Source: Magnetococcales bacterium (GTDB taxonomy: Bacteria > Pseudomonadota > Magnetococcia > Magnetococcales > UBA8363). Taken from it: DNA of 64,000 bases. Below the pieces are notes generated by a model. That model made no database searches and was not told where the DNA came from. It worked only from the letters and a program-made list of their open reading frames with translations. Below, one piece after another: positions 9,182-42,402 of this stretch (position 1 is the stretch's first letter; each line of letters opens with the position of its first letter). Made by a program: the position numbers and the translations under genes. The stretch covers positions 62,001-126,000 of the forward strand of contig JADGCV010000001.1 in the NCBI GenBank assembly GCA_015228815.1. Direction: 5' to 3'.

Positions 9182-9293
9182 TGCTCTCCACGGAAAGACA
9201 GGTTCCGGAATTTCGGATCCTCATGGGTCCACATCCTAGGAAACCTTTTTTATTCTGTCAACGTTCCGTCCCGCGAAACGGTCATGAAAGTCG

Positions 9294-10757
9294 TCAATCC
9301 AATCCCAGATCGGAACATTTTTTTCGCAATGTATTGCGATTGAGTCCCAGAATTCGCGCCGCCTTGACCCGATTGCCCCGGGTTTCGCGCAGGACCCGGG
9401 TGAACAGGGCCGATTCCATTTGCCGCAGAATGATTTCGTGAAGATTGGTCAGGTCGGATGAATTGGCGCTGGCCAGGTGGCGATCGACGAGGGCGATGAC
9501 GCAATCTTCCAGAGTGGGACCGGGCGGAGGACGGGGGGCCGGCGGGGGTTCCGGGGCAAGAGGCAGGGAGGCCGGTGGGGGGACGGACTGGGAATCGGTG
9601 CCGATAAAATCGAGACGGTCGCAACCAATGGTGTCGTGCGGTGCCAGAATCATCAGCCGTTGAATAAGATTTTCAAGTTCGCGAACATTGCCGGGCCAGT
9701 TGTAGGATTGCAGGACCAGGATCGCCTCGGGGGTGAACCATTTGGGGGGAATGTTGACCTTCTTGGAAACCTGGGCGAAAAAATAATCACACAAAAGCGG
9801 TATGTCCTCGGGCCGAGACCGCAGCGAAGGGACGTTCAGCGGAATGACATTCAATCGATAGAACAGATCTTCGCGAAAACGACCGCTGGCGATGGCCTGG
9901 GGCAGATCCTGATGGGTGGCGGCGATGATACGAACGTTGGCGCTGATGGTCTCGGTGCCGCCGATCCGGGTGAAGGTGCCATTCTGCAATACCCGCAGAA
10001 GACGTGTCTGGGCCTCCATCGGCATGTCGCCGATCTCGTCGAGAAACAGCGTCCCTTCACGGGTCCGTTCAAAATGGCCCGTCCTCCGGGAAATGGCACC
10101 GGTGAAGGCCCCTTTCTCGTGACCGAACAATTCGCTTTCCACCAGATTCCGGGGAATGGCGGCCATGTTGATGGCGGTGAACGGGCCGTGGCGCCGCGGA
10201 CTGTGGGCGTGGATGGCCCGGGCCACCAGTTCCTTGCCCGTTCCCGACTCACCGTGGATCAATACCGTCATTTCCGAATTCGCAAGCCGACCGATGGTGC
10301 GAAACAACTCCTGCATCGCCCGCGACGAACCGATGATGCCGCCGAAACGGTCCATGTCCACCCCCCTTTTCGGGGTGTGCGGGGTGGAGCCATCGAGGGC
10401 GCGTCCCACCAATTCGACCACCTTGATGATGTCGAAAGGCTTGGACAGGTATTCGAAGGCCCCCCGTTCGAAAGCGCCGACCGCGTTTCTCAAGGTGCTT
10501 TGCGCCGTGATCACGATCACCGGCAGTTCCGGACGCAGCGTCTTGAGGGTCTTGAGCAGGTCGAGTCCCGAGCCGCCGGGCATGACGATGTCGGTGATGA
10601 CCAGGTCTCCCGTTCCATGCGTCGCCCGCGCCAGAAGATCCTTGCAGGTGTTGAACGTCTCGACCGAAAAACCCGCCTGGCTCAAGGCGGCATCGAGCAC
10701 GAAACGGATGGAAGCGTCATCGTCGGCGACCAGAATGGTTTTTTGTTGGCGGCTCAT
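9294..10757 (-). CDS. ntrC: Nitrogen regulation response regulator NtrC
   Basis: 487 residues: a receiver (residues 5-120, phospho-acceptor Asp in LVITDIVMPGGSG), an AAA+ domain (about 145-380 with GESGTGKE, GAFTGA and GTLFLDEIGD), a Pro-rich linker and a C-terminal Fis-type HTH (NRVKAARILGLNRNTLRKK). It activates sigma-54 promoters of nitrogen-assimilation genes when phosphorylated by NtrB. The start MSRQQKT lies one base after the ntrB stop; an upstream in-frame start inside ntrB is unlikely. It is the third gene of dusB-ntrB-ntrC, the usual alphaproteobacterial arrangement. Confidence 0.93.
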   Translation of the reverse strand: MSRQQKTILVADDDASIRFVLDAALSQAGFSVETFNTCKDLLARATHGTGDLVITDIVMPGGSGLDLLKTLKTLRPELPVIVITAQSTLRNAVGAFERGAFEYLSKPFDIIKVVELVGRALDGSTPHTPKRGVDMDRFGGIIGSSRAMQELFRTIGRLANSEMTVLIHGESGTGKELVARAIHAHSPRRHGPFTAINMAAIPRNLVESELFGHEKGAFTGAISRRTGHFERTREGTLFLDEIGDMPMEAQTRLLRVLQNGTFTRIGGTETISANVRIIAATHQDLPQAIASGRFREDLFYRLNVIPLNVPSLRSRPEDIPLLCDYFFAQVSKKVNIPPKWFTPEAILVLQSYNWPGNVRELENLIQRLMILAPHDTIGCDRLDFIGTDSQSVPPPASLPLAPEPPPAPRPPPGPTLEDCVIALVDRHLASANSSDLTNLHEIILRQMESALFTRVLRETRGNRVKAARILGLNRNTLRKKCSDLGLD

Positions 10758-36484: not shown

Positions 36485-36561
36485 TGGCGGGAGCGACGGG
36501 ACTTGAACCCGCGACCTCCGGCGTGACAGGCCGGCATTCTAACCAGCTGAACTACGCCCCC
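36485..36561 (-). tRNA. tRNA-Asp (GTC)
   Basis: 77 nt including an encoded CCA. Seven-base-pair acceptor (GGGGGCG/CGCTCCC, with one G-T pair), D-arm AGTTCAGCTGGTTAGAAT, anticodon loop CTGTCAC with GTC, T-arm GGGTTCAAGTCCC. In many related genomes it directly follows tRNA-Val; here 1.6 kb separates them. Confidence 0.95.
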
Positions 36562-36663
36562 GTTGAATCGAGACTATAGCGATCGTTCCATCAATCCGCA
36601 AGGCAAAAAGGCTCATTTCAAGAAAGATTGGCCGCGGTAGCACCTTTTGGATCGACGTGTACT

Positions 36664-37983
36664 TCAAAGGTAATTGTCCGGCCAGGGAACCAGGCGATGG
36701 TTGGCCAGATGGCTTCGGATCGTCAATGGCGAAACACTGAAATGCTCCCCGGCCTCCTCAATACGCTCCTCATCCGCAAGCGCCCCGCCCAGAAACTCCT
36801 TCAGTGCCTCGATGGGAACCAGGAATTCGGCGGCGAAGGCCCGCTGCATTTTTTGTCGCGCCGTTTTGGCATCGGTGGCAGGCAACCATCGATCGCCGGA
36901 CGGTGCCATCAACGCATCACCCATCCATCGAGCGACCTCGAAACGCCTTTCCGTGCAACTTTTGCTCCGAAAGAAAAGACGACTCCGCTGCTCGCCTTCC
37001 CCCTTGATCGCCAAACCCAAAGGGGCACCGGCCATGGGGGCCTCCTTGCCATTCAATTCCCGTTCCGTGAACTCCATGATTTGCGTCAAACAACCACTCG
37101 TGACGGGCCTCGAATCGAGGCCCAACCGCCGATGTGATGCCTGCGCCCAATCCCAACCCCTTTTCCAGGGAGGATCCGCGGCCCCAGGCATTCCCGACAG
37201 TTCATCCCGCAGCTTGAATAATTCAGAAAGGCGGACCGGAACGCCGGATGTATCAGCAGTCCCCCTCCGGATTCCCTTCAGAAGTTCACCAGGTCGCATA
37301 CCGGCACATGCGGCGGCAACCTCGATGACAGCCTCCGGACCCGCTTCCAGGGAGAGCCCCTGAAAATCATCCATGACATCATCCGGCGCTTCGTCAGACT
37401 CCCACCCCAGCAAGGCTTCCATTCTGCGATACGCAGCCGTTTCCGGATCGACTCGTTCTCCGGTCACCTCCCGCCACAGCATCCGCAACGGTGTTTCGCG
37501 GATTCCCGAATCTTCCAGGCGGTCGATGACGGTCTGGATAAACGTCGCAATGCCCTCGGTAAAACCGGCAACCGGCATGGATGTTACGAATCGGTTCAAA
37601 TATCGAATGGGTTCGGGGACATCCAGATCGGGAGGGGTGCATCGGACGGTGACCATGGCACCGTCCGGTTCAAACCGAAGAGGAGGCCAAAGGAAACCAT
37701 GACCCGCGCCACGCATTTCGTGCGCCAGACGCCAACCGACATCGGACCGCTGTTCCGACAGCGACTCCCAATGCAGCCGCCACCAGGAAGATACCAGCCA
37801 CAAGGCCAGTGGGTAGGCAGAAAGCGGGACCGACTCTTCGACCGTCCGGGTCCAATCATTGAAAACCTTTGTTGCCAGATGACCATTGACGCGAACGTAC
37901 AAATGCGCGGACGTATGACAAATCGGATCGGAACCGTGATCCGGAGTCAACCACCGAGGTTCAATGACAAGGGAAGCGTTCAC
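36664..37983 (-). CDS. Degenerate ImmA/IrrE-like protein, accessory module
   Basis: 439 residues from a GTG that overlaps the stop of a small upstream ORF. The C-terminal 100 residues resemble the distal half of ImmA/IrrE metallopeptidase domains: FEVARWMGDALMAPSG at the place of the zinc helix, then RQKMQRAFAAEFLVPIEALKEFL, and an HTH-like end (FSVSPLTIRSHLANHRLV). The zinc-binding HExxH is absent, so catalysis is unlikely. The N-terminal 300 residues are unassigned. Such proteins usually accompany toxin-antitoxin, phage or restriction loci. It lies between tRNA-Val and tRNA-Asp, a likely insertion site. The family assignment is tentative. Confidence 0.6.
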   Translation of the reverse strand: MNASLVIEPRWLTPDHGSDPICHTSAHLYVRVNGHLATKVFNDWTRTVEESVPLSAYPLALWLVSSWWRLHWESLSEQRSDVGWRLAHEMRGAGHGFLWPPLRFEPDGAMVTVRCTPPDLDVPEPIRYLNRFVTSMPVAGFTEGIATFIQTVIDRLEDSGIRETPLRMLWREVTGERVDPETAAYRRMEALLGWESDEAPDDVMDDFQGLSLEAGPEAVIEVAAACAGMRPGELLKGIRRGTADTSGVPVRLSELFKLRDELSGMPGAADPPWKRGWDWAQASHRRLGLDSRPVTSGCLTQIMEFTERELNGKEAPMAGAPLGLAIKGEGEQRSRLFFRSKSCTERRFEVARWMGDALMAPSGDRWLPATDAKTARQKMQRAFAAEFLVPIEALKEFLGGALADEERIEEAGEHFSVSPLTIRSHLANHRLVPWPDNYL

Positions 37984-38108
37984 GACTTACCCCAACGTTC
38001 CAGAGCCTCGCGGCGAAAAGGATCTCCCTCAGGCATGGGATATCCATGGTAGACCCCCTGGGTCTCGTTCTCCAACTGGGCCTCGAACGGCACCCCTTGA
38101 TCGCTCAC
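37980..38108 (-). CDS. Small ORF coupled to the ImmA/IrrE-like gene
   Basis: About 42 residues if started at the GTG at 38108. The reading frame stays open into the end of the tRNA-Val gene, reading ...IEKWPKNVWAVSDQGVPFEAQ and ending RREALERWGKS. Its stop overlaps the GTG start of the next gene (GTGA), as in coupled pairs. The sequence (VPFEAQ, YHGYPMPEGDPF) reads like a genuine compact beta-rich domain rather than a random frame. No ribosome site is visible before the GTG, so the true start is unknown. It could be a toxin or antitoxin subunit, but this is only a guess from context. Confidence 0.4.
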   Translation of the reverse strand: MSDQGVPFEAQLENETQGVYHGYPMPEGDPFRREALERWGKS

Positions 38109-38150
38109 GGCCCAGACATTCTTGGGCCACTTCTCTATTGAGTGTAAGAG

Positions 38151-38226
38151 TGGTAGGCGGAACAGGGTTTGAACCTGTGACCTCCGGCTTGTAAGGCCGA
38201 TGCTCTCCCGGCTGAGCTATCCGCCC
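38151..38226 (-). tRNA. tRNA-Val (TAC)
   Basis: 76 nt including CCA. Acceptor GGGCGGA/TCCGCCT, D-arm TAGCTCAGCCGGGAGAGCA, anticodon loop CTTACAA with TAC, T-arm CAGGTTCAAACCCTG. It lies 20 bp downstream of hupB on the same strand, the usual position in proteobacteria. Confidence 0.96.
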
Positions 38227-38246: not shown

Positions 38247-38519
38247 TCAGGCGACAGCGTCCTTCAATCCCTTGCCGGGGCGAAATTTTGGTTGTTTGGC
38301 GGCGGGGATCTGGATTTCGGCCCCAGTACGCGGATTGCGTCCGGTACGGGCAGCCCGCTCCGACACGCTGAATGTCCCAAAGCCCACCAGGCTGACCTGA
38401 TCGCCCCCCTTCAAGGCCCCCTCGATGGCACCCACAACGGCGTCGATGGCATCCGAGGATTGGGCCTTGGTCAGCCCCGTCCTGGCAGCCACGGCATCTA
38501 CGAGTTCGGTTTTGTTCAA
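38247..38519 (-). CDS. hupB: DNA-binding protein HU
   Basis: 90 residues with the complete HU fold: [49 protein letters not shown] (the DNA-binding arm) and the C-terminal helix. It is a dimeric nucleoid protein. The start appears to be a TTG at 38519, preceded by GGAGGG eight bases upstream; no ATG fits. It follows lon by about 160 bp and precedes tRNA-Val. Confidence 0.95.
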   Translation of the reverse strand: MNKTELVDAVAARTGLTKAQSSDAIDAVVGAIEGALKGGDQVSLVGFGTFSVSERAARTGRNPRTGAEIQIPAAKQPKFRPGKGLKDAVA

Positions 38520-38681: not shown

Positions 38682-41120
38682 TCAGTGGGTAATGGAAGGG
38701 GGGTCCACATGGGCGATTTCCTCGGGAAGAACGGCTGGAGCCACCTTTTCCACCGGTTCCCCACTCTTGACCGTCGCTATTTCACGGATCAGGGCCATTT
38801 TCAACACCTCATCCATGTGATTGACGGGATGGACCTCGATGTCCCTGAGAATCGACAGGGGAATTTCCTTCAAATCCTTGACATTTTCATGGGGAATCAG
38901 CACATGGCGAATACCGGCGCGGTGCGCCGCCAGCAGTTTTTCCTTGAGCCCGCCAATGACCAACACCCGCCCCCTCAGAGTGATTTCCCCCGTCATGGCG
39001 ACATCCTTGCGCACCGGGATGCCGGTCAGGATGCTGGCAATGGTCGTCGTGATGGCGATTCCCGCCGAAGGCCCATCCTTGGGAGTCGCCCCTTCGGGGA
39101 CGTGAATGTGAAAATCATGCTTCTGAAAAAAATCATCCCCGATCATCCCCCAGTCCTTCGACCGGGAACGGGCGTAGGTCATGGCCGCCTGCGCCGATTC
39201 CTGCATGACATCCCCCAGCTTGCCGGTAATGGTCAGCTTGCCCTTGCCATCGAGAATCGAGGCCTCGATGGAAAGCAGTTCCCCACCCACTTCCGTCCAC
39301 GCCAGTCCCGTCGTGACCCCGATCAGATCGGTCTCTTCCGCCAAGCCAAAACGATATTTCTTGACCCCCAGGAACTTGCCCAAGCCCTTGGCGCCAATGG
39401 TCATCCCGACACGCCCCTCCTCGGTCAGAAGGATTCGCGCCGTCTTGCGGCACAGGCTGGCGATCTCACGCTCCAGATTCCGCACCCCCGCTTCGCGGGT
39501 ATAATAACGGATGATGTCGATGATCCCCCCCTCGGACAGATGAAACTCCCCATCCTCAAGGCCATGCGCCTCCATTTGCTTGGGAATCAGATACTTCAAC
39601 GCAATGCGCAACTTCTCCTGCTCGGTGTAGCCCGCCAGACGGATCACCTCCATCCGATCGAGCAAAGGCCGGGGAATGTTGAGACTGTTGGCGGTCGTCA
39701 AAAACATCACCTGGGAAAGATCGTAATCGACCTCCAGGTAATGATCGTTGAAGGTATTGTTCTGTTCCGGATCCAAAACCTCCAACAAGGCCGAAGAAGG
39801 GTCGCCACGGTAGTCGGAACCGACCTTGTCGATCTCGTCGAGCAGAAAAAGAGGATTGTTGGAACCCGCCTTCTTCATCGACTGGATGATCTTTCCCGGC
39901 AACGAACCAATGTAGGTCCGGCGATGGCCGCGAATTTCCGCCTCGTCGCGGATTCCCCCCAGGGACATCCGGACATATTCCCGCCCCGAGGCCCGGGCGA
40001 TCGACTTGGCCAGCGACGTCTTGCCCACCCCCGGAGGACCCACCAGGCACAAAATCGGTCCCTTGATCTTCTTGACCTTCTGTTGCACCGCCAACTGTTC
40101 CAGAATCCGTTCCTTGACCTTTTCCAGCCCCCAGTGATCCTCTTCGAGAATCTCCTCCGCCTCCTTGAGATCATGCTTGAGTTCGGTGGACTTGCTCCAG
40201 GGAAGCGAAACCAGCCAATCGACATAGTTGCGCACCACCGTCGCCTCGGCGGACATAGGCGCCATCTGCTTGAGTTTCTTGAGCTCCCCTTCCGCCTTCG
40301 CCTTGGCCTCCTCCGTCATCCCCACCTCGTTGATGCGGGTGGCCAGATCGTTCAATTCATCCTTGTCGTCATCGCGATCGCCAAGCTCCTTCTGGATCGC
40401 CTTCATCTGTTCGTTCAGATAATAATCGCGGTGACTTTTTTCCATCTGCCGTTTGACACGCCCGCGAACCCGTTTTTCCACCTGCAATACATCGATTTCC
40501 TGCTCCAATGCCAGCAGCAACCGTTCCAGGCGGTCATACACCGTGTCCAGTTCCAACAACTCCTGCTTGTCGGGAACCTTGAGATTGATATGGGTCGCGG
40601 CAATGTCGGCAAGACGTTCCGGGTCCTCCAGCGATTGGAAGGTCATCAACACTTCCGGAGCGAGCTTCTTGTTCAGTTTGGCGTAGGCCTCGAACTGCGC
40701 CACCACCGTGCGCATGATGGCGCGGGTCTCGGTCTGATTGCCCGCCTTGGTCGGAATCCCTTCCGCCTCCACCAGAAGATAGGGCTCGAATTGCAGATAA
40801 CGCTTGATGCGCATCCGCCGGTTCCCCTCCACCAACACCTTGACCGTATTGTCAGGCAATTTCAAAACCTGAAGAATCGATCCCTCGACACCGATGTCAT
40901 AGACGTCGGCATCCTCGGGGGTATCGGTGGCAGGATTTTTCTGCGTGACCAGCAGAATCTTGCGGTCCTCCTCCTTGGCAGTCACCGCATCCAGCGCCCG
41001 TATCGACCGATCCCGTCCCACGAACAAAGGTACGATCATCTGCGGAAAGACGACAATATCACGCAATGGCAGAACCGCAATGCGAACGGTGTTGGCCAGT
41101 GCGCCGGGTGACGTGATCAT
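38682..41120 (-). CDS. lon: ATP-dependent protease Lon
   Basis: 812 residues: N-terminal substrate domain ([21 protein letters not shown]), a central coiled coil, an AAA+ module with Walker [10 protein letters not shown] and Walker [12 protein letters not shown], and a C-terminal protease domain with the Ser-Lys dyad (PKDGPSAG and the downstream Lys in [14 protein letters not shown]). It degrades misfolded and regulatory proteins. The ATG at 41120 is chosen; the upstream extension to 41165 is short and unconserved. A 939-codon open frame on the opposite strand is only its shadow. Confidence 0.97.
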
Positions 41121-41133
41121 GGTGTGGCCTTTC

Positions 41134-42402
41134 TCAAGCCTGGGCCTCCATCTGTCGCTCTTCATAGATCAGCAGAGGTTTGGCTTCGTTGTCGATGGCT
41201 TCCTGATTGACCACCACTTCCCGAACATCGGGCAGTGACGGTACATTGTACATGACATCAAGCAGAACCGTTTCCAGGATTGCCCGCAATCCGCGGGCGC
41301 CGGTCTTGAGTTTTACCGCCTTGCCGGCCACCGCCTTGACCGCGTCCGCCGTGATCGTCAGCCGGACCCCTTCGAGTTCCAGGAGTTTCCGATACTGTTT
41401 GATCAGGGCATTCCTGGGTTCCTCCAGAATGCGGATCAATGCCGCCTCATCCAGGTCGGTCAGGGTCGCAATCACCGGCAACCGACCGACGAACTCGGGA
41501 ATCAGACCGAACTGGATCAGGTCTTCCGGTTCCAGAAGCGGCAGAAGATCGTTGATTTCCCGGTCCCCGGCGGTAAACTTGACCTCCGCGCCAAAACCAA
41601 TGCCGTGATGCTTGTTGGAGCGACGCTCGATCACCTTGCCCAGGCCGTTGAACGCCCCACCGCAAATGAACAAAATGTTCGAGGTGTCTACCTGAAGATA
41701 TTCCTGCTGCGGATGCTTGCGTCCCCCCTGGGGTGGCACGTTGGCGACCGTCCCTTCGATAATCTTCAACAGCGCCTGTTGCACCCCCTCCCCCGAAACA
41801 TCGCGGGTGATCGAGGGATTGTCGGACTTGCGCGAGATCTTGTCGATCTCGTCGATGAACACGATCCCCTTCTGCGCCTTCTCGACATCATTGTCCGCCG
41901 CCTGCAACAGCCGCAGAATGATGTTTTCCACATCCTCGCCCACATATCCCGCCTCGGTCAGGGTCGTGGCATCGGTGATGGTGAAGGGAACGTCGAGAAT
42001 ACGCGCCAGGGTCTGCGCCAGCAACGTCTTGCCCGATCCGGTGGGACCGACAAGCAATATGTTGGACTTGGCGATTTCCACCTCGTCCTTGCCGCCGACG
42101 TCCACCCCCAACCGCTTGTAATGATTGTAGACCGCAACCGCCAGGACCTTCTTGGCATGCTCCTGGCCGATGACATGGTCGTCGAGGATCTCATTGATTT
42201 CCAGCGGCGTCGGAATCCCGATCTTGCGCTTGTCCTCTTTGCCCGGCCCCTTCTCCTCGGTGATGATGTCCTGGCAAAGATCGACGCATTCATTGCATAT
42301 AAACACGGACGGTCCGGCTATGAGCTTGCGTACCTCATGCTGTGTCTTGCCGCAAAAGGAACAATGAAGAACGCTTCCTGATTCCGATCTTTTCTTCGCC
42401 AT
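41134..42402 (-). CDS. clpX: ClpXP ATPase subunit ClpX
   Basis: 422 residues: an N-terminal zinc-binding domain ([30 protein letters not shown]), an AAA+ domain with Walker A GPTGSGKT, Walker [12 protein letters not shown], and the IGF loop ([11 protein letters not shown]) that docks on ClpP. The last residues contain EERQMEAQA. It lies 66 bp after clpP and 13 bp before lon. Confidence 0.97.

Follow-up and report, generated by a model that had tools for sequence, protein, structure and literature searches.

An accessory gene pair with toxin-antitoxin-like anatomy, and its truncated copy in the tRNA-Val/tRNA-Asp interval of a Magnetococcales genome

The window, a 64,000-nt stretch of a Magnetococcales contig, carries between its tRNA-Val and tRNA-Asp genes an intact 439-codon gene and the 3' remnant of a smaller one, which in relatives form a conserved two-gene module. 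Where complete, the module is probably a toxin-antitoxin-type pair in toxin-first order, and the window copy a solitary antitoxin left by truncation. A wider proposal is plausible though more tentative: that the pair represents an undescribed toxin-antitoxin family reaching into 12 or more phylum-level groups, whose antitoxin is a protease fold that has permanently lost its active site and works through binding alone, whose toxin is of undescribed family and fold, and of which the window shows a stage with the toxin removed and the antitoxin retained. "Undescribed" refers here to open-access papers; subscription journals may contain a description.

The interval between tRNA-Val and tRNA-Asp

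On the minus strand the gene order is lon, hupB, tRNA-Val, a 1,589-bp interval and tRNA-Asp (Table 1). As an earlier note on this DNA had observed, the interval holds a 439-residue gene on the same strand as the tRNAs, together with a small ORF coupled to it; the start codon of the large gene and the stop codon of the small ORF share four bases (GTGA, 37980-37983). The promoter-like sequence preceding tRNA-Asp resembles sequence in the empty spacers of relatives and was absent from the output of a stricter consensus scan.

Table 1. Features of the interval and its surroundings (window coordinates)
Feature	Position	Strand	Basis or remark
tRNA-Asp (GTC)	36485..36561	-	ARAGORN; other interval boundary
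tRNA-Asp promoter-like sequence (TTGCGG, 17 nt, TATAGT)	36573..36601	-	read from sequence
Large gene, 439 aa, GTG start, intact	36664..37983	-	ORF, structure model, alignment
Lost metal site, codons 352-377 of large gene	36853..36930	-	alignment columns; coordinates computed from codon numbers
Small-gene 3' remnant, about the last 50 codons plus stop	37980..38135	-	model match and full-length relatives
tRNA-Val (TAC)	38151..38226	-	ARAGORN; adjoins hupB in relatives too; 3' end bounds the insertion
hupB	38247..38519	-	upstream of tRNA-Val
lon	38682..41165	-	upstream of hupB

The earlier note had taken the small ORF to be a gene coupled to the large one. The coupling stands, but the ORF is not a complete gene: window positions 37986-38135 match only positions 92-141 of the 143-position model of the small-protein family. 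In relatives the whole gene runs to about 143 codons and stops shortly before the start of the large gene or inside it; in the window its first ~91 codons, about two thirds, are gone. The remnant begins about 15 nt past the end of tRNA-Val, lacks an upstream in-frame ATG, and has as its first in-frame start a GTG giving 42 aa. A profile search of the 96-contig assembly did not find the missing 5' part at any other place. An assembly error at the truncation is possible and would have to hit exactly that point.

Comparison was made with the 17 genomes of the order in which both tRNAs lie on one stretch; in several others no tRNA-Asp was found near tRNA-Val. The Val-Asp spacer measures 97, 107, 110, 175, 110 and 169 bp in six genomes of the same genus and 78-295 bp in ten further genomes of the order, so that the compact Val-Asp arrangement which the note regarded as usual is indeed found in 16 of the 17. 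The pair is missing from this site in all 17, the exception to the empty spacers being G027 (L197:9062-10860), which holds about 1.8 kb of different cargo between the two tRNAs. The sixteen empty spacers and the G027 cargo indicate an interval that is normally empty and sometimes loaded. This comparison of sister genomes, which the note had suggested, thus returned an empty site or alternative cargo in every case; the genes are not fixed at the site in relatives and the small protein is conserved at full length where the gene is whole, so neither outcome that the note named as refuting is seen, and the accessory nature of the two genes at the Val-Asp site is supported. Full-length large genes occur elsewhere in 12 other Magnetococcales genomes, at differing sites and with no tRNA within 1.5 kb.

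The G027 cargo includes an ORF, 9269-10102(-), that matches the penicillin-binding transpeptidase domain and has class D beta-lactamase-like motifs. A second genome, G011, carries directly downstream of tRNA-Val (L198:6402-7007) a HicA-like ORF, slightly under the cut-off of Pfam HicA_toxin, and a HicB-like helix-turn-helix ORF; no tRNA-Asp was found nearby.

The note had further suggested a mobile stress or immunity module. An accessory, conserved pair with toxin-antitoxin-like anatomy fits this suggestion in part; that the copy is intact, phage-borne or a tRNA-integrating element is not supported. A phage origin was rejected, since searches of viral contigs and of phage records returned no relative. 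Integration into a tRNA was likewise rejected, as the tRNA 3' end is not repeated and no integrase-like gene lies between the tRNAs; the repeat comparison turns up nothing beyond the likeness that two tRNA genes normally share, in agreement with the note, which had seen no duplicated tRNA end either. Placement in a defence island was set aside; a raw count gave a few defence-like neighbours. A defence role for the pair is possible.

Pairing, distribution and the two protein families

A scan of named genomes returned 161 relatives of the small protein, and 80 loci were kept. The large gene directly follows the small gene in all 80, usually with an overlap of 4 or 8 nt. Three of these large genes are cut by contig ends, and the 77 large proteins entering the tree span 12 phylum-level groups. 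On plasmids, more distant copies (~30% identity) are again followed at once by a gene of comparable size. Purifying selection acts on both genes: across 15 close pairs dN/dS lies between 0.085 and 0.275 for either gene where computable, with one exception of 0.51 in a small-gene pair that has six changes in total. Within the Magnetococcales the small gene is present in 14 of 48 genomes and a full-length large gene in 13, against about 1% in the other Pseudomonadota sampled (Fisher test on approximate counts). Adjacent and usually coupled genes that co-occur, with patchy presence at varying sites, are traits of type II toxin-antitoxin systems. The tree of the large protein largely clusters by phylum, requiring 13 changes where the least possible is 11, and rampant transfer between phyla was rejected as unsupported, although the window copy falls among members from other families of its order. 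A distribution over many phyla is not in itself a sign of recent transfer.

The large protein consists of an N-terminal half that forms an unnamed conserved domain, followed by a C-terminal domain predicted to have an IrrE/ImmA-like fold. Its similarity to Peptidase_M78 (PF06114) is weak (E 0.012, under the Pfam cut-off), and neither protein of the pair reaches a curated family model. The AlphaFold2 model is confident (pLDDT 94.9). Its best Foldseek match in the PDB is CapP 7t5t (probability 1.00, E 0.03, TM-score <0.4), and IrrE is matched by 3dti and 3dte with probabilities of 0.89 and 0.77, E-values up to about 0.5 (0.47 for the 0.89 match) and TM-scores again <0.4. Since these E-values and TM-scores are modest, the fold assignment leans also on the sequence pattern and on the sub-threshold Pfam match. 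The N-terminal domain is confined to this family; it was not seen on active proteases in 299 genomes of the phylum, and no helix-turn-helix family matches this part of the protein.

The description of an ImmA/IrrE-like protein without HExxH, given in the earlier note, agrees with the weak PF06114 match and extends to the whole family: the motif is present in none of the 77 large proteins. When alignment columns are read against same-order kin that retain AHELAH...EKRANAFAA, the first histidine is replaced by arginine and the third ligand by glutamine in 77/77, the glutamate position is mostly hydrophobic, and the second histidine has become aspartate or glutamate in 74/77. The ligand set of an active M78 peptidase (His, Glu, His and a third Glu) is therefore not present in the family. 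In the window the corresponding residues are Arg352, a hydrophobic residue at 353, Asp356 and Gln377. Loss of the metal site in the same manner everywhere points to an old loss after which a new role was conserved. The window gene itself has a fully open frame and, of 68 strongly conserved columns, differs at 4 (median 3); its branch in the tree measures 0.54, with nearest kin at 0.27-0.50.

No named family in Pfam or NCBIfam takes in the small protein, and a PADLOC and PHROGs search for which the window remnant was the only query gave no match. A transposase identity was rejected, the match being weak and far below cut-off. Invariant or near-invariant residues of the family are His42, Lys43, Lys61, Cys64, Asp65, Glu111, Glu115, Tyr122 and His123. 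Structure prediction of both proteins, also suggested in the note, gave structural matches for the large protein only: no solved structure matched the small one by sequence or by fold, and its most conserved loop is predicted at low confidence.

Damage to the small gene and the proposed roles

In toxin-antitoxin systems the loss of the toxin is tolerated and that of the antitoxin is not. Of the 80 named loci, four (L041, L048, L061 and L104) have a broken small gene; all four come from metagenome-assembled genomes, so that some of these breaks could be sequence errors. None of the large genes readable whole is broken. Were breaks spread evenly over codons, the chance of all four landing in the small gene would be 0.004, and sequence errors should strike the longer, large gene more often. 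This concentration of damage in the small gene, together with the tolerable nature of toxin loss, favours the small protein as the toxin. The small gene is also broken, and the large gene retained, in the window, G008 and G027; these three were found through the large gene and add no independent statistic. In G008 the interruption (L005:2976-3122) is an element of about 145 bp with terminal inverted repeats (GGGCGTRTTGACATT), which has dozens of copies in that genome and was not found in three other genomes searched. A counterexample to damage confined to the small gene is G016, where part of the large gene survives alone as a relic.

In the proposed mechanism the toxin role would fall to the small protein, of ~143 aa and an unnamed family, which would probably be an enzyme; the large protein would be the antitoxin, its IrrE/ImmA-like fold neutralising the partner. 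As the protease site is lost throughout the family, neutralisation would be by binding. The large protein may also regulate the operon via a helix-turn-helix-like segment near its C-terminus. Since the small gene has lost its first ~91 codons, the window copy probably makes no active toxin, and the large gene, still open and conserved, would be a solitary antitoxin.

Other roles for the two proteins can be envisaged. The module may lie outside the toxin-antitoxin category, the small protein being a stress-pathway enzyme or nucleic-acid binder whose loss is tolerated and the large protein its sensor or regulatory partner. Such an arrangement would suit the known behaviour of IrrE-fold proteins, which act as sensors, with PprI binding single-stranded DNA (PMC10904395), as well as the large protein's own conserved N-terminal domain and the mostly ordinary genes that neighbour copies elsewhere. 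We nevertheless regard it as unlikely, since the patchy presence, the dispersed sites and the recurrent loss of only the small gene better suit a selfish or defence module. A reversal of roles, with the large protein as toxin and the small as antitoxin, appears very improbable. It recalls the prediction that COG2856 (ImmA-like) proteins are toxins paired with Xre antitoxins (PMC2701414), but that prediction rests on a protease activity whose active site is gone here in 77/77 proteins, and later work identifies ImmA-domain proteins as antitoxins (PMC10440598). Moreover, the large gene is intact where the small gene is broken, a state that should be harmful if the small protein were the antitoxin.

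Two further readings concern the fate and the use of a toxin-antitoxin pair. The window insertion may be a decaying, functionless relic, its large gene on the way out after truncation of the small one. This must be taken seriously, although on balance it is doubtful: most of the small gene is lost from the genome as searched, and because the module's own upstream region is missing, expression would need read-through from hupB or tRNA-Val; yet the large gene is fully open, with a near-median number of departures from conserved columns and a branch length near that of its kin. A recent truncation would give the same intact large gene. The pair may also serve against phages, by abortive infection, a function compatible with the toxin-antitoxin explanation and to which we would assign a rather low likelihood. 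RosmerTA systems protect against phages (PMC10440598), a Massilia plasmid copy (L146) sits immediately behind dptH, part of a DNA phosphorothioation system, and defence models (HerA, PtuA, ZorD and DpdE) are hit by a few neighbours; these are, however, few among 122 neighbours by raw count, and most neighbours are ordinary genes.

Relation to known systems

The toxin-antitoxin reading of the pair has its nearest parallel in RosmerTA (RmrT/RmrA, including pneumococcal RipAB), the ImmA-antitoxin zone of toxin-antitoxin systems, in which a small toxin, here a candidate one, is likewise encoded beside an ImmA/IrrE-fold protein and the toxin gene often comes first (PMC10440598, PMC12795458). The antitoxins of these systems are ImmA-domain proteins, 58% of them in toxin-first order (PMC10440598), and RipB, an Xre plus ImmA protein, counteracts the pneumococcal toxin RipA (PMC12795458). 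The present pair differs from RosmerTA in that the large protein is without a metal site in all 77 cases and the small protein falls in no named family. It also differs from ImmA-type antitoxins with an N-terminal Xre domain, a frequent though not universal feature, in having the unnamed domain instead. The large protein has no match in PADLOC 2.0.0, whose model set may or may not include RosmerTA.

CapH/CapP and IrrE(PprI)/DdrO provide the closest solved structures to the predicted C-terminal domain. CapP and IrrE are, however, active proteases that cleave a repressor, whereas the large family lacks the catalytic residues, and unlike CapH and DdrO the partner of the large protein is not a recognised helix-turn-helix repressor. 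Discussion of ImmA-domain antitoxins usually treats them as proteases. If one widespread branch has uniformly lost the site, this fold would be shown to act as an antitoxin without cleavage, and the pair would also add a candidate toxin family that the searched family libraries do not contain. The window copy would then offer a natural case of a candidate antitoxin retained after loss of its partner.

The Xre-COG2856 proteins associated with PIN toxins (PMC2701414) resemble the pair in placing an M78-fold protein beside a candidate toxin, with overlapping genes. Loci of this kind (L163 and L164) occur in two other Magnetococcales genomes, where active-type M78 genes overlap PIN-domain genes; they differ from the pair in that HExxH is kept, the M78 gene comes first and the partner has a PIN domain.
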